Below, piece after piece: positions 4,104-41,293 of a stretch of 41,293 nt of DNA (positions within the stretch are counted from its first letter, which is position 1; each line of letters opens with the position of its first letter). The position numbers were made by a program, and so were the translations under genes. Source of the DNA: Lentisphaerota bacterium (GTDB lineage Bacteria; Verrucomicrobiota; Lentisphaeria; Victivallales; Victivallaceae). The stretch is taken from assembly GCA_015061495.1 (NCBI GenBank), contig SUWL01000019.1, positions 1 to 41,293 on the forward strand, written 5' to 3'. The notes beneath the pieces were generated by a model. The model saw nothing but the letters and a program-made list of their open reading frames with translations. It was not told where the DNA came from and searched no databases.

Positions 4104-5239
4104 GGTTGAAAAACGAATAAAAAGTCAGCGGATACCTTCTTCGCCGCTTTGACCGGTATCCACAGCGGTTGAATATGGGCATTGCCCCATGAGTTGGAAA
4201 CGGCGATCTCATCTGTGCCGGCATTGTAACCGATAATCAGGCAGACATGATTATTGGTGGTACGGCGGGGGATGGAAATTTTTTTCAAGGTGCGTTTCCA
4301 GTTTTGCACACTTCCTGCCCGCGGGCGGTTGAGGCGGCTGAAGTTGTAGAGTTTATTCAATTCGGCAGTGGAATGCATACACCAGCACAGCGGCACACCT
4401 TTGTCGATATACCGGGATACGCTTTTTACTGAAACATCGGAAATTTTTGCCATGCCCAGACCGGTTTTCCGGCGGATGAAACGGATACTTTTGTTGATCT
4501 GATCGACATTGGTACCATCTTCGGGGTCGGCACCTCCCATTTTGGCGAGGTGGTGCATATCCATATTTATGCCGTAATAGAGGAAAATTCTGGACAATGT
4601 CGCCGGGACACAATATCCTTTGCTGCCCTGATCGACCATGGGGATATTTTTGATGTACACATCGCCGAAGCCGTTGCGTTCCAGATTTTTTGAGAGATCT
4701 TTTTTTGCCGGAGCATCCTTCGGCTGCCGGACGGCGGAGGGCTGGATGTGCAGCATGATGAATTCATTTTTGTCGACCTCCAGCCAGATTTTGGCGAAGC
4801 GGCACTGCCAGAGATCCATTTTGGTGCGAACCGGAACAAAATCCGGCGATTCCCGTCGGCTTTTGCCCAGCAGGGTGTGCAATTTGCCCGAAATGATCCG
4901 GCGGGCATCCTGGATGTCCGAAGCCGCCTTACGGTCATCTCCCCGATTGGCGAAATAAATGGATATCAACGTGATCTGTCTGGCGGAACGGTCAGTTGTG
5001 ATATGGATCTCTTTTGCCGGAACTCCGGCGATGTCCCCCCGGTAAAAGGTCGAATATTTGCCGCCGTTTCCGGCAAAACGCAAGCGGCTGCGCCGTAAGA
5101 ACAGCTGGAAATCCCAGGGGTTCTTTTCTGCGAAAATACCGATACCTAAAGTCCGGTTCAGATTTTGTACCGTTACCGCGCCGTCAACGGTAACTGCGGC
5201 ACCGATAATGAACAGCAGCAGCCGGAGATATTTCATCAT
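4100..5239 (-). CDS. Secreted papain-like / C39-like cysteine protease domain protein
   Basis: The 379-residue product begins MMKYLRLLLFIIGAAVTVDG, a clear signal peptide or anchor, so it probably acts outside the cytoplasm. An N-terminal region of about 190 residues has no recognised motif. The C-terminal part has the order of a papain-fold protease: VDQGSKGYCVPATLSRI (Gln and Cys, Cys near residue 210), NNHVCLIIGYN (His) and SNSWGN (Asn). This gives a plausible Cys-His-Asn triad. The substrate is unknown. I chose the ATG at 5239, one base after the stop of the upstream small membrane gene. A longer frame to 5278 would overlap that gene and place residues ahead of the signal peptide. Its stop overlaps the XPB start, so the two are probably co-translated, though a shared function is not evident. 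Confidence 0.7.
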   Translation of the reverse strand: MMKYLRLLLFIIGAAVTVDGAVTVQNLNRTLGIGIFAEKNPWDFQLFLRRSRLRFAGNGGKYSTFYRGDIAGVPAKEIHITTDRSARQITLISIYFANRGDDRKAASDIQDARRIISGKLHTLLGKSRRESPDFVPVRTKMDLWQCRFAKIWLEVDKNEFIMLHIQPSAVRQPKDAPAKKDLSKNLERNGFGDVYIKNIPMVDQGSKGYCVPATLSRIFLYYGINMDMHHLAKMGGADPEDGTNVDQINKSIRFIRRKTGLGMAKISDVSVKSVSRYIDKGVPLCWCMHSTAELNKLYNFSRLNRPRAGSVQNWKRTLKKISIPRRTTNNHVCLIIGYNAGTDEIAVSNSWGNAHIQPLWIPVKAAKKVSADFLFVFQP

Positions 5240-5240
5240 A

Positions 5241-5495
5241 TCACTTCTTTTTGGGACGCTGGAATCCGGCAGTGGCAAAGCCGATGCCGCCGACGATAAC
5301 GCCGAAAATCAGCGATTTTACCGCCCCGGTACGCATGGCGATGCCCAGAGTGAATGCCAGGCCGAAACAGAACAAGCCGACCAGGATGGCTTTGTCTTTG
5401 TCAAAACGGGGGAGGCTGTGATCGTCTCTGGCAGCTTCCAGTTCGACTTCCAGGAGTTTTTCTTTGAGTTCCGGAGAAAGCTTTTCTTCGTCCAT
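5241..5495 (-). CDS. Small membrane protein, 84 residues, two predicted helices
   Basis: No family recognised. The first 35 residues are highly charged (MDEEKLSPELKEKLLEVELE). Two hydrophobic stretches follow, AILVGLFCFGLAFTLGIAM and SLIFGVIVGGIGFATAGF, ending in a basic RPKKK tail. That fits a small inner-membrane protein with both ends in the cytoplasm. AAAGGA lies about 8 nt upstream of the ATG at 5495. It sits between the pseudouridine synthase (12-nt gap) and the papain-like protease (1-nt gap), so it is part of the same transcript. Confidence 0.75.
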   Translation of the reverse strand: MDEEKLSPELKEKLLEVELEAARDDHSLPRFDKDKAILVGLFCFGLAFTLGIAMRTGAVKSLIFGVIVGGIGFATAGFQRPKKK

Positions 5496-25701: not shown

Positions 25702-25772
25702 AACCGTCAGGATCAGTGTGAATGGTAAGGAATTGTAAAATTCATAAATATATTTCGGAAGGAAAAAGACGA

Positions 25773-28442
25773 ATGAAAAAGAAGGCAGTATTTGCTTCAG
25801 CTCCGTTGGTGTTGTGTGCAGCCGCAGTAATGGTCTGTATGACATCTTCGCTTCATGCCCGCAGTGTGACGGAACAACATGAAAAAATCAGTGAGAAGGG
25901 ATACGAAGAGCAAGAGAAAGCAGTTGCGCGCAGCAGAAATTTTGCAAAAGACGGCAAGTACGATCAGGCGATCCGGACTCTTCAGGACGAAGTTGTCGCG
26001 CCTTTGGAATTGGAAGCCGGTGAGATCGACAGCTGGAAGGCCCGCAAACGGCTTGCTCAATATCGTCAGGAGCTCCGCAATCTGCAGTTGACTTATGGTA
26101 ATCTTAAACTCAAAGCCGCGGAAAATGCCATCGTGCAGGGACGTTTCAACGAAGCGATCGCGCTTGCCAACGAAGCAAGGTTGATCACTCCGCTGCTCAA
26201 TGAAAAGGCTGAAAATGTGATAAGTTCTGCCAGCGGCAAAAAGAAGGTTTCTGACCGTACCGCTAAAACTTCTGCCGAAACATCCGATCCCGAGATCATC
26301 GAGCGCGAAGCAAAAATCAAACGTCTGCTTGATGAGGCTCGGGTCTGCTTCCGCAACGGCCGTTATGATCTGGTTTGGAAAAAGGTCGAGGAAGTTTATG
26401 TCCTCAATCCTTACAATGCCGAAGCAAGTTATCTGGCATCCCAGGCGTATAAAAAGTACTACCAGACCGGATATCAGCGGCGCAGAGCAGATATTCAGGC
26501 GCAGTTCGCTTATGAAGCATGGCAGTGGGTCGAACCGGTTTTCCCGGTGAAAAGTGAAAATATGTCTTCCAGCGAAGAGGATAAACCTGCTCCCGAGGTC
26601 AACGATTATGCTATCCAGAAAAAACTTGATGAGATCGTTCTGCCGGTGGTGACCTTCAACAAACAGGATATCGAAACTGTTATTCAGTTTTTGCGTGAGC
26701 AGAGCGCGCGTTGGGACAAAGACGGGAAAAAAGGGGTGAATATCGCTTTTATTCAGGAAGCGCGCAAAAAAACTCCGGCAGTTAATGAGTCTGCCGCCGC
26801 CGCTCCGGAAAATGCCGAAAAAACTGCCAATGCCGAAAATCCGGAAAATCCTGCCGGCGATGGAAATGATGACGAATTCGATTGGAATTCAGAAGAGAGC
26901 GATGCTGCCGCTGCAGAGGGAAAAGACAAAAACGCCCAGAAGGAAAATGGTATTTTTGTAACTCTGTCATTGCAGAACGTTTCGCTGCGGCAGGTTTTGA
27001 ATTACGTCAGTTATCTTACCGATTTGCCCTATGTCGTGCGTGAGGATCGTATCCTTTTCGGTACGCCGGATAATGAGTTGACAACCAGAAAATATGAATT
27101 GTTCAACAGTGTCAAGGCGATGATCGCCGGACAGAAAAGTAATGCCGGAGCCGATGCGGCTGCCGATGCCGGAGCTGATGCGGCTGCCGATGCCGGAGAC
27201 ATGGGTGAAGGCGGCGATGCTGATGCTGGCGAAGGCGGTGATGCTGGTGCTGCTGAAGGCGCTGCTGCCGCTCCTGCTGCTCCTGCTGCTCCTGCGGCAA
27301 TCGATGAGAGTGCCATTACCAGTGATGCATTGAAGAACTTTTTTGAAATTTACGGCGTTTATTTCCCGAAAGGCAGTTCAATAAGTTATTTCCGCGGCGA
27401 AGTGCAGATGAGAAACACTGCCGAAAACCACCGTCACATGCAGGAGATCCTCAAAGGTTTGAATGTGGAAGCTCCCATGATCGAAGTTGAGGTCAAATCC
27501 ATTGAGCTTACCGAAAACGATATGGAAGAACTCGGATTCACCTGGGCTCTGGGCGTGATCAAAAATAATAAAGTTACAGTTCAAAAGGGCAGCAATACCT
27601 CGGTTGACGGCGAGGGCGCCGTCCTTAAAATGCTCGATGGTCTGCTCAGCGGTGTTGACTCCCGGATCGTGAGTAATCTCAATATTTTCCCGGATATTTT
27701 CGGATCATTCAAACCTTTCGGTATTGATGAAAGTTTCAACCTGACCCTGACGATCAATGCATTGGATCGCAGTGACCGCACCGAACAGATTTCCGCTCCG
27801 CGGGTACTGGTCGCCAATGGTGTTTCTGCCCGGGTCAAGATGACTAAAGCCTACTTCTTCCCTGAAGACTGGGAAGAGTTGGAAATTGAAACGGAAGAGG
27901 TCGGTGATAATGGTAATCTTTCTGTCAATATCACTCCGCCGAGTCCGGAATTTTCCGAAACTGAAGAGGATATCGGAACGGTCTTCACCGTTACTCCGAC
28001 GATCCGTGAAGGCAATAAAGTCATCAATTTGAAACTCAATCCCAAAATTACCGCTTACACCGGTAAAGACGAAGCCGAAGTGGTGGTTGTCGAGGAACGC
28101 CGCGACGAGATCGGTTCCGAATGGGTGCAGACGATTCACCGTTATACCGTGTGGCGTCCGGTCATCGCCACCCGTGAGGTCACCGTGGATGTTGACTTGA
28201 ACCACGGAGAAACGATGGTGATCGCCGGATTGTCCGACAGTACTTCCCAGAAACGCATGGATAGAATTCCGATTTTATCGGATATTCCATTTATCGGCAG
28301 ACTTTTCCAGACCCAGTCTGAATTGTCGACCCGGAGAAATATGTTGATCTTTGTGACAGCAAGACTTGTCAACAATGACGGCATTCCGCTGCCTCGTACT
28401 GAAAGCCTCGGTAATGGCGGTATTCCCATGTTGTCACGCTGA
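25773..28442 (+). CDS. PilQ/GspD-type outer-membrane secretin (Amuc_1098-like)
   Basis: The 889-residue product has a signal peptide (MKKKAVFASAPLVLCAAAVMV), then TPR-like helices (KDGKYDQAIRTLQDEV; NGRYDLVWKKVEEVYVLNP). N-domain-like segments follow (VTLSLQNVSLRQVLNYVSYL), then an Ala/Gly/Asp linker (about 455-510) and a C-terminal secretin domain. That domain includes APMIEVEVKSIELTENDMEE, LNHGETMVIAGL and the hallmark RIPILSDIPFIGRLFQ. Secretins form the gated outer-membrane ring for pili or type II secretion. I chose the ATG at 25773 with GGAAGGA 9 nt upstream, not 25722, because the signal peptide starts there. The second secretin begins 22 nt after the stop. Confidence 0.88.
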   Translation: MKKKAVFASAPLVLCAAAVMVCMTSSLHARSVTEQHEKISEKGYEEQEKAVARSRNFAKDGKYDQAIRTLQDEVVAPLELEAGEIDSWKARKRLAQYRQELRNLQLTYGNLKLKAAENAIVQGRFNEAIALANEARLITPLLNEKAENVISSASGKKKVSDRTAKTSAETSDPEIIEREAKIKRLLDEARVCFRNGRYDLVWKKVEEVYVLNPYNAEASYLASQAYKKYYQTGYQRRRADIQAQFAYEAWQWVEPVFPVKSENMSSSEEDKPAPEVNDYAIQKKLDEIVLPVVTFNKQDIETVIQFLREQSARWDKDGKKGVNIAFIQEARKKTPAVNESAAAAPENAEKTANAENPENPAGDGNDDEFDWNSEESDAAAAEGKDKNAQKENGIFVTLSLQNVSLRQVLNYVSYLTDLPYVVREDRILFGTPDNELTTRKYELFNSVKAMIAGQKSNAGADAAADAGADAAADAGDMGEGGDADAGEGGDAGAAEGAAAAPAAPAAPAAIDESAITSDALKNFFEIYGVYFPKGSSISYFRGEVQMRNTAENHRHMQEILKGLNVEAPMIEVEVKSIELTENDMEELGFTWALGVIKNNKVTVQKGSNTSVDGEGAVLKMLDGLLSGVDSRIVSNLNIFPDIFGSFKPFGIDESFNLTLTINALDRSDRTEQISAPRVLVANGVSARVKMTKAYFFPEDWEELEIETEEVGDNGNLSVNITPPSPEFSETEEDIGTVFTVTPTIREGNKVINLKLNPKITAYTGKDEAEVVVVEERRDEIGSEWVQTIHRYTVWRPVIATREVTVDVDLNHGETMVIAGLSDSTSQKRMDRIPILSDIPFIGRLFQTQSELSTRRNMLIFVTARLVNNDGIPLPRTESLGNGGIPMLSR
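27144..27191 (+). repeat. Two 24-bp tandem repeats in the secretin linker
   Basis: Two copies (27144-27167 and 27168-27191) differ by one base and encode AGADAAAD twice. They sit at the start of an Ala/Gly/Asp-rich linker that is probably disordered and may vary in length. Confidence 0.85.
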
Positions 28443-28464
28443 TTAAGATCGGAGGATTATAACG

Positions 28465-30765
28465 ATGATAAATAAGAAGATGATGTTGTTGCTCCCGGGT
28501 GTGGTTTGGGGCGCAGTAGTTATGGCCGATGATCCGAGCGGCAAAAACGTGTTCCCTGCAAACTCCGGAGTTGCGTGGCAGGCTGATGTTATGGAAAATA
28601 TCGGTCGTCAGAAGCTGTTGTTCGACAGTAATGAAATGGTCAAAAAAGCCAATAAACTGATGCTTGACGGCAAGTATCGTGATGCGATCGCCGAGTACCG
28701 TGCCATCGTGAAACGGTTGAAACCGTTCGGCGCAGGACGTGTATTCAGGGAAAGAATTGAATTTTGCCAAAAGCGAATCGCGGAATGTTATTACAATATG
28801 GCTGAAGATGTGATGAAACAGGCCGAAGATTTCGCTTCAACTTTGAATTTTGAAGAAGCCATCAAAATCTGTCAGGAAGCTGTCAAATTCTGTCCGGAAC
28901 GGGAAAAAGAACTCCAGGAGCGTATCAAATACTATCAGCAGCGGCGGGAAGCTGCTGTTTACCGGGAGAGTTTGGAAATCGATAAAATCGATCCCGATTT
29001 TAACACGCAGAAATATGAGATCCAACTGCTGATCGAACAGGGAATAGTCCTGGTGCGCCGTAATGAATATATGAAAGCCCGCCGGAAATTTGAAGAGGTG
29101 CTGCTGATCGATCCCTACAATGCCGTCGCTCTGCAGAACCTCCTCGGAATCAATACCAAAATCAGAGATGCGGCAGTGCACCGTTCCAATAACACCAGCC
29201 GTCACAATGTCGGCGGTGTGGAGTGGAGTGCGGCGATCCCGATCGTAGCTGATTCTTCAGCCGGCATCGGAGAAAATCAGCTGGATGCTCCCGCTCAAAA
29301 GGTCGAAGGCGGGCAGAGTGAATTGGAAAAAACTCTCCGGGAAGTTGTGATCCCCAACTATGTGTTGTTTGACGATGCCATGTCTTTCCGCGAAGCTATC
29401 GACGAGTTGCAGAAACAGATCCGGGATGTCAGACCCCAGGGAATCAACTTCGTGGTTCGCGATGCAAGTTATGCCAACGAGGGGGAAGCCCCGAAAATGC
29501 CCGGTTTCGCCCCCGGAAAAATGTCCGTTTATGAGATCCTTAACGAATTGCAGAAACGCGGAGACCTGACCTTTAAACTGGAAGATAACGTGGTCGTGAT
29601 CGCTGCAAAAGGGCAGGTGTTGGAAAAGATGACGGTCAAAGTATTCAGTTTTGGCATGTCCTCGGATGAGACCAATGAAACGCTGATGGAAAACCTCAAG
29701 TCCGCCGGTGTTACTTTTGATGCCGGTGCTTCGATTACTGCGTTCCCCGTGCGCAACGAGGTCATCTCCCGTAATACCCCCTCCAATCAGAAACTTATTG
29801 AACAGTGGCTCGCTGCCAACAGCGACAAGGGTACTCCCATGGTGCAGATCATGTTCAAGTTTCTGGAAGTCGCACAGAATGACCTTGATGAACTGGGATT
29901 CAACTGGGAGTACTCACGTTTCAACAGCAATGTCAGTTTTGAAGCCGGCGGTAATGCGCTGCTGCGCCATTATGCCAACGAAGATGCCAACGACCGTTTC
30001 GGCGGCACCGGAGTTACCTCCTCTAAAAATAGTAAAGGTATCGATGAGGATGCCACTTACAACGTTACCTGGAGAGACGGTAAAAATGCCTTGAGTTTCG
30101 GAGTTTACGCTCTGGATTGGGCTGATTCATCCGATGTTCTCTATTCGCCCCGGGTCACGACCAGAAATGATACTACGGCGGTGGTCAATATGGGTGAGAA
30201 ACACCATTACCCCGGTGACTATGAAGATGTGGATAATGAGAGTTCCGACCTCGCCAGGGTGTATGTCACTGCCCCCCAGCCGACACTGGATGATGAGAGA
30301 ACCCTCGGTATCCGTTTCTCCATCCGTCCCAAGGTTAACGGAAATCTGATCCAGGCCCAGGTCAACTTCAACATTCTGACCTTTGACTCCTGGCTGGTTG
30401 TAGACAGCCGTAACCTGAATGATGACGATGATGATGGTGAATACCAGAAAAAAGCGGTGCTTAACACCCGTGCCATCAACACCAACGTGACTTTGAGAGA
30501 CGGTGAAACCGTGTTGATCGGCAGTATTTCCCAGGATCTGACCAATGTCATGCATGACAAAATTCCGATTTTGGGAGATATCCCGTTCGTCGGAAGATTT
30601 TTCCAGTCCAAATACACGGTCAGCAAAAAGAACAATCTGTTGGTGTTCATGACCTGCAAACTGGTCGGTCCCGACGGTTCCGCATGGAACAAGGATCCGA
30701 AAACCGGCAAGCCGCTTAATGTCGGCGGCGAACGCGGATTACCGACCTTCCCGAGAAACCTGTAA
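28465..30765 (+). CDS. Second PilQ/GspD-type secretin
   Basis: The 766-residue protein has a short signal-like N-terminus (MMLLLPGVVWGAVVMADD) and TPR-like helical repeats (LMLDGKYRDAIAEYRAIVKR; RRKFEEVLLIDPYNAVALQN). A C-terminal secretin domain follows, with MVQIMFKFLEVAQNDLDELG, VTLRDGETVLIGSI and the terminal signature KIPILGDIPFVGRFFQ. It has the same overall build as the secretin just upstream but lacks the Ala-rich linker and is clearly divergent, so it is an old duplicate. It could form a mixed ring with the first or serve another substrate. GGAGG lies 9 nt before the ATG. It is the last gene before the terminator. Confidence 0.88.
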   Translation: MINKKMMLLLPGVVWGAVVMADDPSGKNVFPANSGVAWQADVMENIGRQKLLFDSNEMVKKANKLMLDGKYRDAIAEYRAIVKRLKPFGAGRVFRERIEFCQKRIAECYYNMAEDVMKQAEDFASTLNFEEAIKICQEAVKFCPEREKELQERIKYYQQRREAAVYRESLEIDKIDPDFNTQKYEIQLLIEQGIVLVRRNEYMKARRKFEEVLLIDPYNAVALQNLLGINTKIRDAAVHRSNNTSRHNVGGVEWSAAIPIVADSSAGIGENQLDAPAQKVEGGQSELEKTLREVVIPNYVLFDDAMSFREAIDELQKQIRDVRPQGINFVVRDASYANEGEAPKMPGFAPGKMSVYEILNELQKRGDLTFKLEDNVVVIAAKGQVLEKMTVKVFSFGMSSDETNETLMENLKSAGVTFDAGASITAFPVRNEVISRNTPSNQKLIEQWLAANSDKGTPMVQIMFKFLEVAQNDLDELGFNWEYSRFNSNVSFEAGGNALLRHYANEDANDRFGGTGVTSSKNSKGIDEDATYNVTWRDGKNALSFGVYALDWADSSDVLYSPRVTTRNDTTAVVNMGEKHHYPGDYEDVDNESSDLARVYVTAPQPTLDDERTLGIRFSIRPKVNGNLIQAQVNFNILTFDSWLVVDSRNLNDDDDDGEYQKKAVLNTRAINTNVTLRDGETVLIGSISQDLTNVMHDKIPILGDIPFVGRFFQSKYTVSKKNNLLVFMTCKLVGPDGSAWNKDPKTGKPLNVGGERGLPTFPRNL

Positions 30766-31623: not shown

Positions 31624-32748
31624 ATGATCGTTGAACTTTTACAGGAATTGATCCGCATTCCATCGGAAAATAACGGGGTGACCGGTTATGAATATGCCGT
31701 TCAGAAATACTATTATGACTTTTTGCGGAATAACGGTATAGATGCCGAAATGATCTTCCCCGATGAGATCCCGGGATTCGCGGAAAGTCCCGGACGCTTG
31801 AAAGAGCATCTCATGTATATGCGTCCGGCTGTCATCGCATCTCTCACCGGTAACCGCCCCGGCAAAACTCTGCTGCTTCTGGCACATGCCGATACGGTTC
31901 CGGTAGGTGAGATCGCCCGGTGGGAAACTCCGCCTTTTTCCGGCATGGTCAAAGACGGCAGGATCTACGGCAGAGGCAGCGGAGATGATAAATTCGGCAT
32001 GGCTGTGATGGCGGGGCTGATCATCGAACTGAAAAAACGCAACTGCGATTTCCCCGGCAAACTGATCATCGCTTCTGTCCCAGATGAGGAGAGCGGCGGC
32101 GGCAACGGTACCGCAGCGGTATTTGCTCACGGCATTACCGCTGATGAAGCTGTCTTTCTGGATGGCGGATCCAATCAGACGGTGTGGAATGCCGGTATGG
32201 GCGGCGGATTCTGTACGATTTCCGGCGGGGATACCGAAGAGATCAAGCATGCCGTCTATCAGGTCAAAGAGGAGATCATCCGCAAAATCGAGAATCACCC
32301 CTGTTTCGGAGAGAGATTTTATCAGACTATCGGCAAACGGGATCGGTCGATGAGCGTGACCGACGGCGCGGTGACCTTTTTCTACGATACGCTGCCCGGC
32401 GACGATGAAGAGGCTCTCAAAGCGGCTCTGGAAGCGCAATTGCCGGGGTGTTCATTCAAATGGATGAGCCGTTTTCTCAAACCGGCTTATGTACCGGAAA
32501 ATGCTCCGATTATCCGGGATCTCGGAGAAGCATTCCGCAAAGTTACCGGCAGGGAAATGGCGATACTCGGCGGCATCCAGAGCGATCAGGGGTTGGTGAT
32601 GATGCTGGCAGATATCCCCTGTATAGATTTCGGCTGCAGCCGCCGTGGATTGCCCGGTGGCCCCCACCAGCCGGATGAATTTATCGAAATCAAGGTCTTG
32701 GAAGAGGTCTACGAAGCATTGCTGGAAATGATCGTCAACCGGAAATGA
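31624..32748 (+). CDS. M20-family metallopeptidase (ArgE/DapE/ACY1 type)
   Basis: The 374-residue cytoplasmic protein has the full set of M20 metal ligands in order: LLLLAHADTVPVGE (His, with Asp beside it), GRGSGDDKFGMAV (bridging Asp), VPDEESGGGNG (catalytic Glu and metal Glu), FLDGGSNQ (Asp) and GGPHQPDEF (final His). M20 enzymes cleave acyl-amino acids, dipeptides or succinyl-diaminopimelate with two zinc ions. The lid region contains no clear specificity motif, so I assign no substrate. GAGGT precedes the ATG by 6 nt, overlapping the trmO stop. The Gfo/Idh/MocA gene begins 15 nt after its stop. Confidence 0.88.
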   Translation: MIVELLQELIRIPSENNGVTGYEYAVQKYYYDFLRNNGIDAEMIFPDEIPGFAESPGRLKEHLMYMRPAVIASLTGNRPGKTLLLLAHADTVPVGEIARWETPPFSGMVKDGRIYGRGSGDDKFGMAVMAGLIIELKKRNCDFPGKLIIASVPDEESGGGNGTAAVFAHGITADEAVFLDGGSNQTVWNAGMGGGFCTISGGDTEEIKHAVYQVKEEIIRKIENHPCFGERFYQTIGKRDRSMSVTDGAVTFFYDTLPGDDEEALKAALEAQLPGCSFKWMSRFLKPAYVPENAPIIRDLGEAFRKVTGREMAILGGIQSDQGLVMMLADIPCIDFGCSRRGLPGGPHQPDEFIEIKVLEEVYEALLEMIVNRK

Positions 32749-32763
32749 AGGGTGAATAATAAG

Positions 32764-34011
32764 ATGAAAAAATGTGTGCGTGTCGGTCTGGTCGGTTTGG
32801 GACCGCGGTGTGAAACTCTGGCGGCGACCTTATTCAATTTTCCGTCAAGTGAGGTGGATATTACGGCTGTATGCGATATCCGTCAGGACAGAATCGACTT
32901 GATGCAGGAGATACTTTGCAGGCATGACCGGCAAAAAGCCCAGGAATTCACCGATTTCCGGGAATTGGCAAAGTTCGACCAGGTCGATGCCGTTTTGATC
33001 CCGACTTCGTGGAACAGCCACCTCGCCATTGCTGAAGAGATGATGCGCCACGGCAAATATTGCGCTATCGAAGTCGGCGGGGCATCTTCCATCAATGAAT
33101 TGTGGCAGCTGGTGCGGGCGGCGGAATCCACCGGGGTGTCCTGCATGATGCTGGAAAATTGCTGTTACGGCAGAAATGAACTGCTTTGCCTCAATCTCGC
33201 CCGCAAAGGCTTGCTCGGCGAACTTATCCACTGCGAATGCGGTTATGAACATGATCTGACGGATGAACTTATTTTGCGTGATAAGGTCGAAACCGAACGG
33301 GCGGTCCACAATCTCCGCCGCAACGGTGAACTTTATCCGACCCACGGGATCGGACCGGTGGCGAAAATTTTGCGTATCAACCGGGGTAACCGCTTTATGA
33401 CGCTTACTGCCACCGCCAGTAAATCCCGGAGATTTGCCGAAGTCGCGGAAAATGCCGGACTGGGACGCCGGGTATTCAACGAAGGCGATGTGATCACCAC
33501 AGTTATTAAATGCGCCAACGGCGAAACGATCACCATGACTCACAGCGTGTCGCTTCCCCGGCCTTATACCAGAAATCTGCGGGTGCAGGGGACGAAAGGA
33601 CTTTTTCTGGAAGATGCCAACGCCGCTTTCATCGAGGGGATCAGCCCGAGCCGTACCGAATTGGATGTCGCCGGCAATCCCTACAGTGTGCATGATTGGA
33701 CGCCGGTGGCGGAACTTTATGAAAAATATGACCATCCCATTTGGCAGGAATTCCGCAACAATGTTGTCGGCGGCCACGGCGGGATGGATGCTCTGGTGAT
33801 GGGGGCATTCTTTGAAGCGGTGCGCAACCGGACCGCTCCGCCGATCGACGTGTACGATTGCGCCGCATGGATGAGTATCACCTGTTTGAGCGAACAATCC
33901 ATCGCTATGGGCGGTATGCCGGTGGCATTCCCGGATTTTACCGACGGCAAATGGATTTACGAGGGGCGCAGAAGTTCCGGCAAATGGGATCTGGACGAAG
34001 TCGATGATTGA
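32764..34011 (+). CDS. Gfo/Idh/MocA-family protein, GH109-like
   Basis: The 415-residue protein has an N-terminal NAD-binding Rossmann motif (VRVGLVGLGPRCETLA, with AVCDIRQDR after) and the IEVGGASSINELW nucleotide-site segment. The C-terminal substrate domain contains ELYPTHGIGPVAKIL and GGHGGMDALVMGAFF. The YPTHG and GHGGMD stretches resemble GH109 enzymes, which use bound NAD to hydrolyse alpha-N-acetylgalactosaminides. A plain sugar dehydrogenase is the alternative. I chose the ATG at 32764 with AAGGG about 11 nt upstream. The GTG at 32752 would add four residues. Confidence 0.82.
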   Translation: MKKCVRVGLVGLGPRCETLAATLFNFPSSEVDITAVCDIRQDRIDLMQEILCRHDRQKAQEFTDFRELAKFDQVDAVLIPTSWNSHLAIAEEMMRHGKYCAIEVGGASSINELWQLVRAAESTGVSCMMLENCCYGRNELLCLNLARKGLLGELIHCECGYEHDLTDELILRDKVETERAVHNLRRNGELYPTHGIGPVAKILRINRGNRFMTLTATASKSRRFAEVAENAGLGRRVFNEGDVITTVIKCANGETITMTHSVSLPRPYTRNLRVQGTKGLFLEDANAAFIEGISPSRTELDVAGNPYSVHDWTPVAELYEKYDHPIWQEFRNNVVGGHGGMDALVMGAFFEAVRNRTAPPIDVYDCAAWMSITCLSEQSIAMGGMPVAFPDFTDGKWIYEGRRSSGKWDLDEVDD

Positions 34012-34032: not shown

Positions 34033-34111
34033 AATGCACTAAAGTATTTGTCTATCTCGCTGATTTTATACGTTTTTTTTATGTAAAAGCAGTGCGATAA
34101 TGCACTAAAGT
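34033..34111 (+). promoter_or_regulatory. Two operator-like direct repeats (AATGCACTAAAGT)
   Basis: The 13-bp sequence AATGCACTAAAGT occurs at 34033-34045 and again, exactly, at 34099-34111. The core of the second copy extends to the inverted repeat CACT-AA-AGTG. The second copy abuts the -35 box at 34112 of the downstream promoter, where a bound protein could block or recruit polymerase. The regulator encoded at 39689 in the same cluster is a natural candidate, by inference only. Confidence 0.5.
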
Positions 34112-34141
34112 GTTGTTTTTTTATTCTTTAAACGATATATT
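34112..34141 (+). promoter_or_regulatory. Candidate promoter for the glycosidase-like / regulator / prepilin cluster
   Basis: TTGTTT (34112-34117), an 18-bp spacer and TATATT (34136-34141) lie 41 bp before the ATG at 34183. The -35 box matches moderately; the -10 equals that of other promoters in the window. Confidence 0.4.
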
Positions 34142-34182: not shown

Positions 34183-36933
34183 ATGAAAAAACTTCGCATT
34201 TTGTTTTTGCTGCTGATTTGGGCGGGAACCCATTCTGCCGTCGCGGGAAATTGGGAACTTCTTTCGGTTTTCTACCGCCCGTTCCGCGACACCAAAGTGC
34301 AGGCATGGGGCAGGGATTGGAATGTATTTCAAAGCAACGGCAAAATGTTGCGCCCGTGGATCGATTGCCAGTGGATGGAAAATTGCAGTACGACCTTTGA
34401 AATTTATCTGGTAAACCGGCACAGTACGCCGGTGCAGATCAAAGATATCCTGCTTGATGGTAAGAAAATTGCGGATTGTTACCGGGTAACGGGCAATGTG
34501 ATATGGCACCGGGTGGAACCTGCAACTGTCATGCCGGGGCAGGTGGTATCGTTGCTGATAAAATTCTGGTATACCCCGGCAAAGAAATTTGAATTGACAT
34601 TTCTGACCGGAAATGGCAGGGATTTCCGGTACACCGTTGATTTTTCGGATTTGCGCTGCAATGGATTGATCAGCCGTGTTACAGTTGATCCGGACATGGA
34701 TAAGATCCATTTGTGGCTTCACGGCGGAAGTCCGGTCAGCCGGATACTGCTGGACGGGCGTGATTATACTTCCAAATCCCGGATCGGCAAGATTTACGGT
34801 AATTTTATCCCGGTGACGGTAAATGTCGGTGAAAAACTGCAAAAGGGTTCATTGCACAATATTTATGTCGGCAGAAAAGATATCGGCAGTGCAGTGACAT
34901 TCCGGGCATTCAGCAATGATTTCCGTATCGGTATCTACAATGCTCCGATTGGCTGCGGGGTGAAGTATCACCACTTTGATGATATTTGGAATATCCATCA
35001 GGAACGGTTGGAATTTGTAAAAAATGCCGGAAATGAAGATCTCGGCATAATCGCTTCCATTCCCGATGGGCAGTTGAAAAATTATGCCGCTCAACCCAAC
35101 ATGACCGCCAATTATCTGCCTGACGAGCCGGATGCCGGAGAGGTGAGTAAATTCAAACACATCCGCTGGCAGGGACAGCGGTTGGGAATGCTTGCCCCGC
35201 AAGTCAACAGCAAGGCAAATGAGTGTATCCGGCATGCCGCGCATCTGCCGAATATGCTGGTGCTTGACAAGACCAACCGGCCTGCCAATTTTTTCGCCTA
35301 CGGCAGAATGGCTGATTTTACAGCGGTGGATTATTATTGTATAAGTTCAGATCTGCAGCCGCTGACCTGTTATCCGACAGCCAGAGTTTCCCGTATCGCG
35401 GCGGAACCGCTTCCAAGCTCGATGGTGCTGGGATGTTTCAGCCGTCCGGACAGCTCCAAGTGGAAACGGTATCCGAATCCGGCGGAAATGCGGCTGATGG
35501 CGTGGAGTTCCATTGCCGGAGGCGCCACATCCATAAGTTATTGGATGTACCCGGATGGGAAAAAGACACGCGGACCGCAAAGCAATCCGGAATTGTGGAA
35601 CAGTATGGGAAAACTTAACGGGGAAATGAAAATTGCAGGCGCATTGATCGCCAAAAGTTTCCCGGTGGATTCTTCCGTCGTGCAGGTGCCGGAAACGGTG
35701 ATCGCTTCAGTATTGCGCAGTGCGGACGATGAGGCGACCATTTTGATCTTGCTGAATAAAAACTGCCGTTCGGATGCCGGTGGAATGAGTGTGCCGGAAA
35801 TAACCGGCTTGCCGGTACGGCTGCAGCTGCCGCCGGCAAGCCGCGCCGCCGGATTGTACCGTTTGTCGGCAAGCGGGATGGAAAAGTGCCGCTTTACCGC
35901 AGAAAACAGCAGTATTTCATTTTTGATACCCGAGGTGGCGGAATGTGCTGTTTTTGCGGTATTCCATTCCGCGGCGGCGGCGGAAAAGCTGCAGCGGATT
36001 TATCAGCAGGATATCGTTCCTGGCAATAAGAGCGCTGATCAGATCCTTCATGGTAAATTATCACTGCCGGAAGCCGGCTTCAAAGAGTTTGTCCTGCGTT
36101 ATCCGGCGGCGGAAAAAATTGCTCCGGAAGTGACCGGCAGTGCCGTCGCGGTTGATATCAATGCTTCGGTATTGGATTATCCGCAGGGGCAGAATTTTTT
36201 GCAGGCAGGAGAAAATCCGGCAGAGATATGCTGGACGCTGCCGGAAGAACCGGGATGCGCATTTTTGCAATATTCAGTTGGTGAAATAACCTCTGCAGAA
36301 ATAATATATCCTGACGGAGTCCGGCAAATGCTGCTGCTTCCGGCAGATCGCCGGATCGCCGGATTGAAACATGATGGCAAAAAAGCCCGCTTGAAACTTT
36401 CATTGCCCGCCGGAGGCAGTGCGGGAAAATTTCTCGCTTTTGCCAAAGCTGAAAACGCCGCAGATTCATGGATTCCGCTGCCGGTCAGATGTACCAGCAG
36501 CGGTGATGAGCCATTCAGTCCGGAAAAGGCAGACACTCTTACTGACGGGGATTTGCTGAAAGGACCGCGCTGGTCAAATTCCAAAAACCGGCTGCAGAAT
36601 AAAAAAATTTCCATAACGGTCGAACCGGCAGGCGATGCCGCTTGGCGGCGGCTGACAGTTTGCGGTCACTATAACCGGATGTATGGTATCCGGGAACTCG
36701 GCGGGACGGTGTTTTTTGCCGATGGTTCACAAATGCCGCTTGTTCCGCAAAAAAGTTTTTCCGGAGGGCGTGCCAATGGATACCGCAAATATCTGCTTTA
36801 TTGGGAGCTGCCGGGGAAAACGGTGAAAAAAGTTGTCCTGAACCCGGTACCTGCCAATCATTTCTGGTTGTATTTCGGAGAGGTCATCGCACTTGGCGAA
36901 ACTGCTTCATCCGGTATAAAAGGAGAGAAATAG
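34183..36933 (+). CDS. Large secreted glycoside-hydrolase-like protein, paralogue 1
   Basis: The 916-residue protein has a signal peptide (KKLRILFLLLIWAGTHSAVAG). No named family is recognised. An N-terminal beta-rich region of about 260 residues precedes a barrel-like region containing ANYLPDEPDAGE (about 310-320). Further along are WKRYPNPAEMRLMAWSSIAGG and SISYWMYPDGKK, which resemble the acid-bearing strands of clan-A-type glycosidases. The C-terminus has a probable beta-sandwich with LTDGDLLKGPRWSNSKNRL and ends WLYFGEVIALGE, like a discoidin-type carbohydrate-binding module. The neighbouring paralogue shares all these blocks. Polysaccharide cleavage is inferred from the DEPD motif and context. 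The next gene starts 1 nt after its stop. Confidence 0.65.
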   Translation: MKKLRILFLLLIWAGTHSAVAGNWELLSVFYRPFRDTKVQAWGRDWNVFQSNGKMLRPWIDCQWMENCSTTFEIYLVNRHSTPVQIKDILLDGKKIADCYRVTGNVIWHRVEPATVMPGQVVSLLIKFWYTPAKKFELTFLTGNGRDFRYTVDFSDLRCNGLISRVTVDPDMDKIHLWLHGGSPVSRILLDGRDYTSKSRIGKIYGNFIPVTVNVGEKLQKGSLHNIYVGRKDIGSAVTFRAFSNDFRIGIYNAPIGCGVKYHHFDDIWNIHQERLEFVKNAGNEDLGIIASIPDGQLKNYAAQPNMTANYLPDEPDAGEVSKFKHIRWQGQRLGMLAPQVNSKANECIRHAAHLPNMLVLDKTNRPANFFAYGRMADFTAVDYYCISSDLQPLTCYPTARVSRIAAEPLPSSMVLGCFSRPDSSKWKRYPNPAEMRLMAWSSIAGGATSISYWMYPDGKKTRGPQSNPELWNSMGKLNGEMKIAGALIAKSFPVDSSVVQVPETVIASVLRSADDEATILILLNKNCRSDAGGMSVPEITGLPVRLQLPPASRAAGLYRLSASGMEKCRFTAENSSISFLIPEVAECAVFAVFHSAAAAEKLQRIYQQDIVPGNKSADQILHGKLSLPEAGFKEFVLRYPAAEKIAPEVTGSAVAVDINASVLDYPQGQNFLQAGENPAEICWTLPEEPGCAFLQYSVGEITSAEIIYPDGVRQMLLLPADRRIAGLKHDGKKARLKLSLPAGGSAGKFLAFAKAENAADSWIPLPVRCTSSGDEPFSPEKADTLTDGDLLKGPRWSNSKNRLQNKKISITVEPAGDAAWRRLTVCGHYNRMYGIRELGGTVFFADGSQMPLVPQKSFSGGRANGYRKYLLYWELPGKTVKKVVLNPVPANHFWLYFGEVIALGETASSGIKGEK

Positions 36934-36934
36934 A

Positions 36935-39658
36935 ATGAGAAAAATGGTGAAAATGTTATGTTTATGCATGCTGAATTGTGCAGTAGCTTTATCGGTATCC
37001 GCCGGAGATTGGCAGCGGACGGCAATGACTTATGCTCCTGACCGGGGGTATGAAAATGCTGCGGCACATTATGTGGAAAAATGGGGCTGGAAAGATGCCG
37101 CCGGAGAGATAATCCAATATTATCCGAAGTATTTTACTCCGGGCGGGATGCTGGAAATGACTTTTATCTATCGGGGCAAAGAGCGCAAACTTCCCCCGTT
37201 GGAATTGTCGGTAGACGGAGTCAGACAGCAGGAGGTAATGGATCAGCCGGGGCGGAATGTCGTCTGGTATCGCATTACACCGCTTTCTCCGCTGCCGGGT
37301 GCCGTGGTCAGAGTGATGGCGCGTTTCCGCGCTCATCCGGATAAACCGGTTGCACTGCAGTTGAATTCCGGCACGCAAAAGGTGTGGGAAGAGGTGGTGG
37401 ATCTCCGGAAGCTGCCGCGCAGCAGACTGCTCCGGATGACGATGGATGACAGCATGAAACAGCTTAATATTTTTGTGCGGCACAGTGCCGGAGCAAAATT
37501 GGGAAAGGTTTTGTTTGACGGAATGGATCTGTCCGCAAATGTCTCCGCCGGCAGCGTATATGGGAACATCCTGCCGCTGAAATTGACTTTGCCCATGCCG
37601 CTTGCCAAAGGCAGTCACCATACGCTGATTTTTGAGTACGGTTCAGTCGTCAGCAGTTATGGATTTCAGGCGCACCGCAATAACTTCGGATGTGCGATTT
37701 ACGGCGGACCGCACCCGGAAAATATGAAGTGGCACAATTTTGATATCTATTTTGATCACGGTTCCACCCAGATCAGCCGGATCATGGCCAATTACCGCAA
37801 CGGGATCGAGAGTGTATTCATGATCAAAGGCGCATATCACCAGTACCGGGAATTGCCCGGTATTCTGGGAGATTATTTGACCGATGAACCCGATGTGGGG
37901 GATTTTATGCACTATAAGAGTATCAATCCGCCATATTTGCGTCTGGGAATGAATGCTCCGAAACTGAATAAAAAGGTGCAGGATAAAAATCAGCAGGCTC
38001 AAAGTTTGCTCAATATTTCCACGATCAACGGTACATTCAAACCCGGAGAATACTACAATTACGCCCGGATCACCGATGTGGTGGCAATGGATCCCTATTC
38101 CGTATCAGCCGGACGCAGCGTAATGGAAGTTTACGATTTGGGCAAAGTTGTCCATGCCGCAAATGAACCGGGGATTTTCTGGACGCTGATCGGATGTTAC
38201 GCGTACAAAAAAGCTCACTGGAAACGTTTTCCCAATGACGATGAGATGTTGTTTATGGTTCGCAGTGCAGTTGCCGCGGGTACTCAAAGTATCGGATATT
38301 GGATGTATGTCAACGGTTCACTGACCTACGGTCCGGTTGCCAATCCGGGCTTGTGGCGTACCATGGGCAGGATCAACGGTGAATTGAAAAATGCCGCGCA
38401 TCTGCTGCGGAAATCCTGTCCGGCAGAGGTCCCGGTCAAAGTTCCTGACGGGGTCGCCGCACATTTGTTGCGGACGATCGATGATGAAGCAACATTGATC
38501 ATGCTGATCAATACCGGATGTGTATCTGATGCCTCCGGAATCACCATCCCGCCGGTGAAAAAATTCCGGTTGGAAACCGTTTTGCCGCCGGGATGTCCTG
38601 CCGTCGAAGTTTTCCGTATGACTCCGGACGGCCCTGAAAAATGTAAATTTACAACCACGTCTGACGGAAAAACTGCCTTTGAGATCGATATGACCCATAG
38701 TGCATTTTTTGTGATCCCGCACCATCGCAATGCGGCAGATAAGATCATTGATATCTGGAAAAAGAAGATCCTGCCGAACAATCTGATGGCGGAGAAGATT
38801 TTCCGGGGGAGAACTGTCGCTGCAGAGAGCGATTTGAAAGATTATCCGGCGCTGGTGGATTCCCGATTGATCGCTCCGGCAAAAGAGTGCGGCGGCAGAG
38901 AAGAGACCCTGAACGGCGCATGGGTCGATCATTTTCAGGGGCAGAGCTACCGGAGAGCAGGCGAGGAAAAAATGGAGATCAGCTGGCAGCTGCCCCCGGA
39001 AGCCGGTGACATTTATCTGCAGTATTCATCTGAAGAACAGCCGGTCATTTCCCTTGTTAAAAGCGACGGTGTCCGGGAGGATATGATCCTGCCGCCGGCT
39101 CGGCGTACCGGTATAAAGATCGCTCATGACGGCAAGGCACAGCGGATGACACTGGCACTGACGTCCGGAGTTTCCGGCAGATCGCTGTTTTTCGTACCAC
39201 GCGCACTGGCGGATAAAAAAATGAAGTTCCACCGCTCTGCGGATGTGAAAATTCTGGGAGATGAACCGGTTTCTCCGGAAAAAGCCGCCGCGTTGACCGA
39301 CGGCAATTTGGTCAAAGGACCGCGCTGGTCCAATTCCAAAAACCGGCTGAAAAAGCATCAGCCGGTGATCCGGTTGGATTTCCCCGAAGCAGTGAAGTTG
39401 AAAAATGTGATCGTATGCGGCTGGAACAACCGTACCTACGGTATCAACCGGCTTTACGGCAAGGTCACGTTTGCCGACGGATCGTCTGTGACACTGCCGG
39501 ACAGAAAAAGTTTTACCGGAGGGAACGGTATCTGGTACCGGAAATATATTTTCTGGTGGGATCTGCCGGATAAAGCGGTGAAAAATGTGGAAATTATTCC
39601 GTCTCCGGCAAATTTCCTCTGGATCGATATCGGTGAAATTATTTGTGTGGAACGTTGA
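36935..39658 (+). CDS. Large secreted glycoside-hydrolase-like protein, paralogue 2
   Basis: The 907-residue protein has a signal peptide (MVKMLCLCMLNCAVALSVSAG) and the same layout as its upstream neighbour. The matching segments are GDYLTDEPDVGDF, RLGMNAPKLNKK, WKRFPNDDEMLFMVRSAVAAG, SIGYWMYVNGSLTYGP and the C-terminal LTDGNLVKGPRWSNSKNRLK. By eye, identity is roughly a third overall and higher in these blocks. The retained Asp-Glu-Pro-Asp in both copies suggests a shared active site. Signal-peptide cleavage after SVSAG would release the mature enzyme. GGAGA precedes the ATG, and the gap from the first gene is 1 nt. The regulator follows after 30 nt. Confidence 0.65.
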   Translation: MRKMVKMLCLCMLNCAVALSVSAGDWQRTAMTYAPDRGYENAAAHYVEKWGWKDAAGEIIQYYPKYFTPGGMLEMTFIYRGKERKLPPLELSVDGVRQQEVMDQPGRNVVWYRITPLSPLPGAVVRVMARFRAHPDKPVALQLNSGTQKVWEEVVDLRKLPRSRLLRMTMDDSMKQLNIFVRHSAGAKLGKVLFDGMDLSANVSAGSVYGNILPLKLTLPMPLAKGSHHTLIFEYGSVVSSYGFQAHRNNFGCAIYGGPHPENMKWHNFDIYFDHGSTQISRIMANYRNGIESVFMIKGAYHQYRELPGILGDYLTDEPDVGDFMHYKSINPPYLRLGMNAPKLNKKVQDKNQQAQSLLNISTINGTFKPGEYYNYARITDVVAMDPYSVSAGRSVMEVYDLGKVVHAANEPGIFWTLIGCYAYKKAHWKRFPNDDEMLFMVRSAVAAGTQSIGYWMYVNGSLTYGPVANPGLWRTMGRINGELKNAAHLLRKSCPAEVPVKVPDGVAAHLLRTIDDEATLIMLINTGCVSDASGITIPPVKKFRLETVLPPGCPAVEVFRMTPDGPEKCKFTTTSDGKTAFEIDMTHSAFFVIPHHRNAADKIIDIWKKKILPNNLMAEKIFRGRTVAAESDLKDYPALVDSRLIAPAKECGGREETLNGAWVDHFQGQSYRRAGEEKMEISWQLPPEAGDIYLQYSSEEQPVISLVKSDGVREDMILPPARRTGIKIAHDGKAQRMTLALTSGVSGRSLFFVPRALADKKMKFHRSADVKILGDEPVSPEKAAALTDGNLVKGPRWSNSKNRLKKHQPVIRLDFPEAVKLKNVIVCGWNNRTYGINRLYGKVTFADGSSVTLPDRKSFTGGNGIWYRKYIFWWDLPDKAVKNVEIIPSPANFLWIDIGEIICVER

Positions 39659-39688: not shown

Positions 39689-40789
39689 ATGCGTAACGCG
39701 GCAAGTATATTGAAAAATATTCTGTTTGAGCATGAAGATATTTCCAGACAGACGCTGATCCGTATTTCCGGACTGGATCCGCGGACGGTCAGCCGCTGTA
39801 TGAGAACTCTGGCGGCAAAGCATCTGGTTGCCATCAGCCGGCGCAATTCCGGCTGCGGCAGACCGGCAGAGTATTATACTTTGCAGATGCAGAATGTCCG
39901 TTTTGTTCATTTTATAGTGACCAAAAGCGAGATCTATACTGTGGTCAGCGATGTCCGCCGCTTCCCGCTGTTTCTTGACCGGGAAGAGTTCTCCTGGAAC
40001 CGCTCTCACCCGGAAAAGATGACTGCCCGGCTGAAACAGCTGGCACTTGCAGCTCTGGAATTGCCGGAGTTGAAAGATGCTTTTGTGGTTGCCGCCGGAT
40101 TGGGGTACATGCTTAACAGAATACCGCCGGTTAATATCCGGCAGCGCTGGGTAGATGCGCTGGAAATGATTTTTCAGTGTCCGTGTCCGGTGTTGAGTGC
40201 CGATACATTTTTGTTGTCGCAATATCAGGTGAACAGTTGTCTTGCCGGTAAAATGGCGGGGATCACGTACAAAGATGATATCCAATGCGTGGCACTCAAT
40301 GATTCGGTGACCGACCGGAATTTGCAGCTCAAAGCGGAAAAGGTGATCGCCGATGCCGGGGCAAAAGAGATGGGGTTTACCAATTTTATCTGCAAATTTC
40401 ATCCAAACACATTGAAAAATTTGCAGGATTTCCCGCCGGGAAAATATTACAATGCTGTTTGTATGCTTGCTATGAACGGGGATGAACCGGCAGAAAAGCT
40501 GCTGCGTTCTTACGGTAATTTTTTGGGCGGGATTCTGGTGGAACTGGCAAAAACCGAGGCGTTTGATCATCTGACACTGCTGCATCCCCGGCAAATGGTA
40601 AGTGCCGGTGCCATGGAAACTTTCCGCGCCGCATTTCCGGAGTTGCCGCTTTATATGGTGAATTTTTCTCCCAATGGATTTATTCTCGCGCCGGCAGGAT
40701 ATTTGATCCGGGGCGTGCGGGAATTTGAACACGGCAGAAGATTGAATGGATATAACCGGTATTATCAACCATTTTCAGGAAAGGAATGA
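39689..40789 (+). CDS. Winged-helix transcriptional regulator, possibly ROK-related
   Basis: The 366-residue protein begins with a DNA-binding region: ILKNILFEHEDISRQTLIRISGLDPRTVSRCMRTLAAKHLVAISRR (in consecutive pieces), followed by GCGRPAEYYTL. This is the arrangement of ROK/NagC-type regulators, with a recognition helix in DPRTVSRCMRTL. The remaining 290 residues loosely follow a ROK sugar-kinase fold (VVAAGLGYMLNRIP, LSADTFLLSQYQ). The usual glycine-rich ATP and zinc motifs are absent, so it should sense a ligand without kinase activity. It lies directly after the two glycosidase-like genes and is likely to control them. Its last codons contain the ribosome site of the prepilin gene. Confidence 0.7.
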   Translation: MRNAASILKNILFEHEDISRQTLIRISGLDPRTVSRCMRTLAAKHLVAISRRNSGCGRPAEYYTLQMQNVRFVHFIVTKSEIYTVVSDVRRFPLFLDREEFSWNRSHPEKMTARLKQLALAALELPELKDAFVVAAGLGYMLNRIPPVNIRQRWVDALEMIFQCPCPVLSADTFLLSQYQVNSCLAGKMAGITYKDDIQCVALNDSVTDRNLQLKAEKVIADAGAKEMGFTNFICKFHPNTLKNLQDFPPGKYYNAVCMLAMNGDEPAEKLLRSYGNFLGGILVELAKTEAFDHLTLLHPRQMVSAGAMETFRAAFPELPLYMVNFSPNGFILAPAGYLIRGVREFEHGRRLNGYNRYYQPFSGKE

Positions 40790-40793
40790 CAGT

Positions 40794-41293
40794 ATGAGTA
40801 AAAAATCAGCTAAAATCAGCTTCCCTTTCGGGAAAAATCGGCAGCAGAGAGATGTTTTGCCACGATCGGGGTGCCGGCGGATGCAGTTGTTTCAGCATTG
40901 CATATTCTCACTGCTCTTTAAAACGGACTTTTCTTTGAAAGAGCAAGATGGCGCAGCGGGTTGCGGAAAAACTCGCCCTTCCGTCTTCGTTTCACTACGC
41001 CGTGACGAGTCGCTTCGCTGGGGCTCGGATATACCATCACAAAGAAGCCCGCTTTTTTTGAAAGAGAAAGGGGGCGCGGGGGAAAGGGAAAACTTTTTTT
41101 CTCGCCCGCGCGGCGGGTTGCGGAAAAACTCGCCCTTTTCTTTGCTGGGGCTCGGACAATATATAACCCAAAGAGTACCGCTTTTTTTGAAAGAGAAAGG
41201 GGGCGCGGGGGAAAGGGAAAACTTTTTTTCTCGTGAAAAAAAGTTTTCCTTGTCCCCCGCACACTCCCATTTCACTTTAATAGAATTGCTGGT
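40794..41293 (+). CDS. Type IV prepilin-like protein with 159-residue repeat-built leader, C-terminus cut by window edge
   Basis: The frame is open from the ATG at 40794 to the right edge. AAGGA lies at 40781-40785, 8 nt upstream, and the regulator stop is 4 nt upstream. It begins MSKKSAKISFPFGKNRQQRD and reaches HFTLIELLV at residues 159-167, the conserved start of the type IV pilin/pseudopilin helix with the glutamate at position +5. Normal prepilin leaders are about 6-30 residues; this one is 159. The residue before the cleavage site is His, not the usual Gly. The leader holds two copies of PLFLKEKGGAGERENFFSR and is very basic. Prepilin peptidase would cut before Phe160. The mature pilin lies outside the window. 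Confidence 0.75.
   Translation, partial: MSKKSAKISFPFGKNRQQRDVLPRSGCRRMQLFQHCIFSLLFKTDFSLKEQDGAAGCGKTRPSVFVSLRRDESLRWGSDIPSQRSPLFLKEKGGAGERENFFSRPRGGLRKNSPFSLLGLGQYITQRVPLFLKEKGGAGERENFFSREKKFSLSPAHSHFTLIELL
40956..41233 (+). repeat. Duplicated DNA module inside the prepilin leader
   Basis: Three blocks recur in order with spacers. GCGGGTTGCGGAAAAACTCG plus CCCTT is at 40956-40980 and 41111-41135. GCTGGGGCTCGGA is at 41017-41029 and 41144-41156. A 56-bp block starting CCGCTTTTTTTGAAAGAGAA is at 41049-41104 and, exactly, at 41178-41233 (129 bp apart, 43 codons). A decayed version of the third block's start (CTTTGAAAGAG) occurs at 40933-40943. Confidence 0.8.

Follow-up and report, generated by a model that had tools for sequence, protein, structure and literature searches.

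The usual beta4 motif of clan GH-A is Asn-Glu (NE). GH20 enzymes are substrate-assisted and carry a consecutive Asp-Glu (DE), and GH84 uses Asp-Asp (DD). For GH164 the clan is recognized by catalytic residues on beta4 and beta7; in the beta-mannosidase Bs164 these are Glu160 and Glu297, and the nucleophile, Glu297, was identified partly with an E297Q variant (PMC7105311). BT_1012 has a putative catalytic Glu284 (PMC4032388). The GH123 superfamily is substrate-assisted and defined by the consecutive acids DE; its Asp stabilizes the 2-acetamido group of the substrate and its Glu is the acid/base (PMC11087588). GH71 enzymes are barrels that use an acidic dyad and act with inversion (PMC12394665).

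The window analysed here is the whole 41,293-nucleotide stretch of contig SUWL01000019.1 from a Lentisphaerota bacterium, a gut bacterium. It holds a tandem pair of genes for large secreted proteins that are GH-A-like by fold and not by catalytic residues. Our argument starts from computed results on fold, motif position, paralogy, co-inheritance of a regulator and absence of the beta7 nucleophile. We think it probable that these proteins are secreted and glycan-active, and that their GH-A-like barrels dispense with the standard GH-A nucleophile. The best reading of the tandem is an inducible, secreted glycan-degrading pair, probably working without that nucleophile. The features on which the argument turns are these.

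34033..34048, +: operator-like repeat 1 (AATGCACTAAAGTATT), with a similar site at the homologous place in the nearest relative, L001
34099..34114, +: operator-like repeat 2 (AATGCACTAAAGTGTT), 66 bp downstream of repeat 1, with a similar L001 site
34183..36933, +: copy 1, secreted multidomain barrel protein of 916 aa (open reading frame; paralogue of copy 2; L001 orthologue 56% identical)
34183..34248, +: copy 1 signal-peptide-like N-terminus (KK, hydrophobic stretch, AVA|GN), read off the translation
34924..35637, +: copy 1 (beta/alpha)8 barrel, placed by homology through alignment to the copy 2 model
35122..35133, +: copy 1 DEPD (D314-E315-P316-D317), end of beta4, invariant in 11/11 relatives
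35329..35337, +: copy 1 beta6 D383-x-Y385, from the superfamily alignment
35431..35433, +: copy 1 beta7 nucleophile slot, Gly417, on a strand without a nearby acid (alignments to GH42 structures)
36460..36897, +: copy 1 C-terminal F5/8C-CBM32-like domain with KGPRWSNSKNRL, by homology to copy 2
36935..39658, +: copy 2, secreted multidomain barrel protein of 907 aa (open reading frame; AlphaFold2 model; L001 orthologue 62% identical)
36935..37003, +: copy 2 signal-peptide-like N-terminus (SVSA|GD), read off the translation
37688..38392, +: copy 2 (beta/alpha)8 barrel, residues 252-486 (AlphaFold2 and DSSP)
37883..37894, +: copy 2 DEPD (D317-E318-P319-D320), end of beta4 (310-315 in the model)
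38192..38194, +: copy 2 beta7 nucleophile slot, Gly420 (beta7 is 414-420 in the model)
39215..39655, +: copy 2 C-terminal F5/8C-CBM32-like domain with KGPRWSNSKNRL (separate model, pLDDT 82.8)
39689..40789, +: winged-helix regulator, N-terminus weakly like MreA/Mlc/NagC, with a 50% identical orthologue adjoining the L001 tandem

Tandem copies, domains and fold

A single base separates the two open reading frames, and the copies align over their full length at 34% identity (E 3e-166), far beyond chance. The motifs run in the same order in both: DEPD, then ISYWMY or IGYWMY, then KGPRWSNSKNRL (residues 793-804 of copy 1, 794-805 of copy 2). This bears out the earlier note, which had described tandem paralogues with ordered shared motifs. 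It had also called them secreted and glycosidase-like, and the signal-peptide-like N-termini, together with a GH-A-type barrel in which DEPD sits at the catalytic, C-terminal end of beta4, support that description.

The fold was predicted from an AlphaFold2 model of copy 2 built on an alignment of eight sequences (pLDDT 80.5, pTM 0.77). The predicted architecture has N-terminal beta domains to about residue 245, a GH-A-like (beta/alpha)8 barrel at 252-486, a beta domain at 494-595, a long helix and a C-terminal beta region that ends in an F5/8C-CBM32-like domain. Within the barrel, beta4 runs into DEPD, beta6 (382-386) ends at a conserved Asp, beta7 ends in LIGC and beta8 (452-456) lies within IGYWMY. 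VIA-align places the barrel closest to the GH164 beta-mannosidase (Z 20.8), the GH140-like BT_1012 and its relatives (19.7-19.9) and GH42 (19.5). Foldseek alone matched many other barrel glycosidases, above all GH2. The earlier suggestion of a clan GH-A barrel is therefore right for the fold, since the best structural matches, at Z about 20, belong to that clan.

A separate model of the C-terminal part of copy 2 matches, over its last 147 residues (about 761-907), F5/8C-containing fucosidases, other chains and CBM32 modules at Z 9-11. CBM32 reaches 10.5, and other chains that contain F5/8C reach as much as 11.3. No Pfam family of F5/8C or CBM32 type turned up when the full-length proteins were scanned to E 1. 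The model places KGPRWSNSKNRL in an F5/8 type C/CBM32-like beta-sandwich. Judged from this model, the domain probably binds glycan.

Neither copy has an above-threshold match in Pfam, NCBIfam or PDB sequences. The earlier statement that no named family could be recognized holds for these three. The family is real and undescribed in Pfam and NCBIfam, a statement that covers those libraries and not CAZy. The named families nearest by fold or motif can be taken in turn. The GH42 profile PF02449 scores 11.4 bits against copy 1 (E 0.2, cut-off 21), does not match copy 2 in the Pfam scan, and reaches at best 19.2 bits over a whole protein among the relatives, again under the cut-off of 21. These weak matches and those to GH42 structures share a consistent register. 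We reject GH42 membership on the sub-threshold score and the missing nucleophile. The GH140/Apiosidase-like profile PF13204 has no match to the window copies in the Pfam scan and matches two far relatives below its cut-off (E about 0.02-0.1). GH164 matches in fold only (5% identity), and without a beta7 Glu the copies lack the beta4/beta7 catalytic pair. GH123 membership is rejected on sequence: the Pfam scan found no PF13320 match in either copy, and comparison with the four GH123 members of the same genome by hhalign gave E 0.21 over 35 columns, which is no profile relation. Solved GH123 structures are absent among the matches listed by Foldseek and the best 50 from VIA-align, which does not count against a relation in fold.

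Barrel residues and the possible mechanisms

The 11 close and intermediate sequences share eleven invariant residues, numbered here as in copy 1: D314, E315, P316, D317, R333, Y373, D378, D383, Y385, R429 and E435. To look across the superfamily we aligned 58 members to a barrel-only profile, A6. Position 314 is Asp in 57 of the 58 and position 385 is Tyr in the same number, position 315 is Glu in 41 and Asp in 16, and position 383 is Asp in 40 and Glu in 16. The beta7 slot is Gln in 45, Gly in seven and Glu in only two; both window copies have Gly (VLGCF and LIGCY). HMM alignments put the nucleophile Glu of three GH42 structures no more than one residue from this slot, and neither copy has an acidic residue within two residues of it.

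By position, then, the putative acid/base of clan GH-A is present at the end of beta4 (E315 in copy 1, E318 in copy 2, both in DEPD), and the nucleophile Glu that should end beta7 is absent. With this second catalytic Glu missing, DEPD alone is unable to run the standard GH-A double displacement. It had been argued that retention of the acidic motif in both copies speaks for catalysis; for the ordinary GH-A route this fails, since the beta7 Glu is absent from both copies and from nearly all relatives. With one of the two usual catalytic residues missing, the proteins either cleave sugars in a different way or do no more than bind them.

We infer that the barrel would use the Asp-Glu pair of beta4, and no enzyme nucleophile, to hydrolyse glycan. 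The route that we favour, tentatively and by analogy, is substrate assistance: the Glu would be the acid/base, the preceding Asp, like its counterpart in GH20 and GH123, would orient the 2-acetamido group, and the beta6 Tyr would assist. If this is right, the likely substrates are glycans containing N-acetylhexosamine. Several points stand against it. In a comparison made by sequence and with GH123 alone among the substrate-assisted families, no relation to GH123 was found. An inverting acid-base pair would explain the conserved Asp of beta6, and the Glu/Asp exchange between it and the beta4 acid, at least equally well. A barrel that only binds would likewise show a lost catalytic residue, and a GH109-like gene beside the tandem is not kept in L001.

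The main rival is an inverting glycosidase, which we consider possible but somewhat unlikely. Its acid would be the beta4 Glu (Asp in one clade), its base the beta6 Asp (Glu in that clade), and in most of the superfamily the beta7 Gln would position the water. What speaks for it is that positions 315 and 383 keep one Glu and one Asp while the order swaps: E/D in 40 of 58 members, D/E in 16, and one each of L/W and E/H. GH71 is a precedent for a barrel with an acidic dyad and inversion (PMC12394665). The members that pair DD at beta4 with Glu at beta6, in place of the DE and Asp seen in the others, form a clade (L013, L018, L052-L061, L069, L074, L075 and L087). The swap is mostly confined to this one clade, with only two changes on the tree (one or two independent pairs), so the members are statistically non-independent and the swap is suggestive rather than independent evidence. 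GH42 structures share the beta6 Asp yet retain their nucleophile; the Asp may therefore be ancestral and structural. The window copies, moreover, have Gly at beta7 and not Gln.

The second rival, which we think unlikely, is a non-catalytic glycan-binding or structural protein: catalysis would have been lost, and the barrel and F5/8C-like domain would capture glycans or shape the cell surface. The nucleophile is gone from nearly the whole superfamily, and among the members found here none has a known enzyme activity, as this rival would have it. Against it, D314, D378, Y385 and, for the most part, R429 and E435 are near-invariant across very divergent sequences, which would be unusual without a catalytic or specific binding role, and members adjoin sulfatases, GH38, GH94 and GH2.

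An ordinary retaining GH-A glycosidase that draws its nucleophile from elsewhere, for example copy 1 Glu408 near beta7, is improbable: the GH-A fold and the beta4 acid/base position suit it and Glu408 is kept in the six closest sequences, but it is missing from four of five intermediate relatives, for which we reject it as the nucleophile, and in the model its copy 2 counterpart, E411, precedes strand 414-420, away from the catalytic end.

Relatives, regulator and neighbourhood

Of the named relatives, the nearest are Lentisphaerae SIG82 (L001) and a Lentisphaeria genome from sheep colon (L002). In L001 both genes of the tandem are present, 56% (copy 1) and 62% (copy 2) identical; the secretin and TrmO genes lie upstream of them, and the regulator follows downstream. 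L002 keeps the order copy 1 then copy 2. Since both carry the copies in order, the tandem duplication is old and, as read from these three genomes, predates them. The copy 2 orthologue of L002 (3637-5560) lies in two frames with a break near 4509, and its match stops at about residue 626; an assembly error or decay would each account for the split.

The full family is rare. Of 388 phylum genomes only nine have a match at E <= 1e-10, and in most of these the match covers just part of the protein. The barrel is far more widespread: profile A6 finds matches in 78 of 289 sampled phylum genomes at E <= 1e-8, and in ten places in the genome of the window, the two copies included. Profile comparison joins the family to the intermediate relatives (E 1e-52) and the far relatives (E 3e-15). 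A phage or plasmid origin was rejected, since no relatives were found in viral contigs or plasmids.

The regulator travels with the tandem. Among 40 relatives it occurs in both of those with the tandem and in none of the 38 without it (exact test p 0.0013). The 14-bp TGCACTAAAGTRTT occurs twice upstream of copy 1 (34035-34048 and 34101-34114), and L001 has a similar repeat pair, with 65-bp spacing, in the homologous location. The adjacent winged-helix regulator probably controls the tandem through these two repeats. The earlier note had proposed an inducible polysaccharide locus. The inducible part gains from the co-inherited regulator and the conserved upstream repeats, and distant relatives do lie near carbohydrate-degradation genes; the neighbours here (secretins, TrmO and an M20 peptidase) are not a polysaccharide cluster.

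Those distant relatives adjoin genes for GH2, an SGSH-type sulfatase and a heparinase-like protein (L003), GH38 (L093) and GH94 (L094), and several of the barrel relatives in the genome of the window have CBM4_9 domains within the same chain. These neighbours and domains support a carbohydrate role and do not fix the substrate. L003 comes from a Guaymas MAG whose record is titled Chlamydiae; its family member sits beside GH2, PhoD, sulfatase and heparinase-like genes, and the host assignment of the contig may be wrong.

Two genes lie between TrmO and the tandem: an M20 peptidase (31624-32748) and a GH109-like Gfo/Idh oxidoreductase (32752-34011; PF21252, E 3.5e-49). Both are missing from the syntenic L001 locus, and for this reason we give the oxidoreductase little weight as a clue to substrate. 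Side by side at 25722-30765 are two secretin-family genes whose N-terminal parts are TPR-like; they are next to the tandem in L001 as well.

Elsewhere in the window, a caspase-like peptidase C14 is fused to BspA-type leucine-rich repeats (3-1211, -), and an XPB-type helicase gene overlaps a C39-like peptidase gene (2730-5278, -). At 40930-41278 lies a dispersed repeat, roughly 220 bases long, which contains both direct and inverted parts; the genome holds 68 pieces that match it, several of them at contig ends. It runs directly into a prepilin-like start (HSHFTLIELL), and it is possible that this is a repeat family linked to prepilin genes. No Rfam RNA was found in the window.

Comparison with known enzymes

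We would put forward, with reservation, a still wider proposal: that secreted enzymes of GH-A fold form a large undescribed superfamily in Lentisphaeria and elsewhere in the phylum, and that this superfamily may have replaced the two-Glu retaining mechanism with a substrate-assisted or inverting one, through loss of the beta7 nucleophile and a change of beta4 from Asn-Glu to Asp-Glu. If its members are catalytic, this would be a mechanism switch within one of the best-known enzyme folds, in about a quarter of the sampled phylum genomes, and would account for part of the uncharacterized glycan-degrading capacity of Lentisphaeria. It would also supply natural intermediates (DE or DD at beta4, D or E at beta6, Gln or Gly at beta7) for testing how a glycosidase mechanism changes.

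The closest resemblance by structure is to clan GH-A. Like GH164 (Bs164, 6t6g), GH42 (5xb7) and the GH140-like BT_1012 (3kzs), the window family has the barrel (Z 19.5-20.8 over about 320-330 residues) and an acidic residue ending beta4, and it has a weak match to the GH42 profile. It differs from them in having Gly or Gln at beta7, where GH164 and GH42 have a catalytic Glu (BT_1012 has its putative Glu284), with identities of only 5-13%, and from the usual clan member in having DE rather than NE at beta4. Gln, the residue of the E297Q variant of Bs164, is the usual beta7 residue of this superfamily.

By motif and description, the likeness is to GH20 and the GH123 superfamily: a consecutive Asp-Glu in a (beta/alpha)8 barrel with no enzyme nucleophile. 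Both beta4 forms, the DE of GH20 and the DD of GH84, are present in the superfamily. Unlike GH123, however, the copies have no PF13320 match and no profile relation to the four GH123 members of their own genome. GH71 and GH99 are alike by description in having a (beta/alpha)8 barrel and two acids without the classical GH-A pair (PMC12394665), but their dyad is non-consecutive (DxxE in GH71). At the C-terminus the proteins lack a Pfam match to F5/8 type C and CBM32 domains, and resemble them in their sandwich (Z 9-11).
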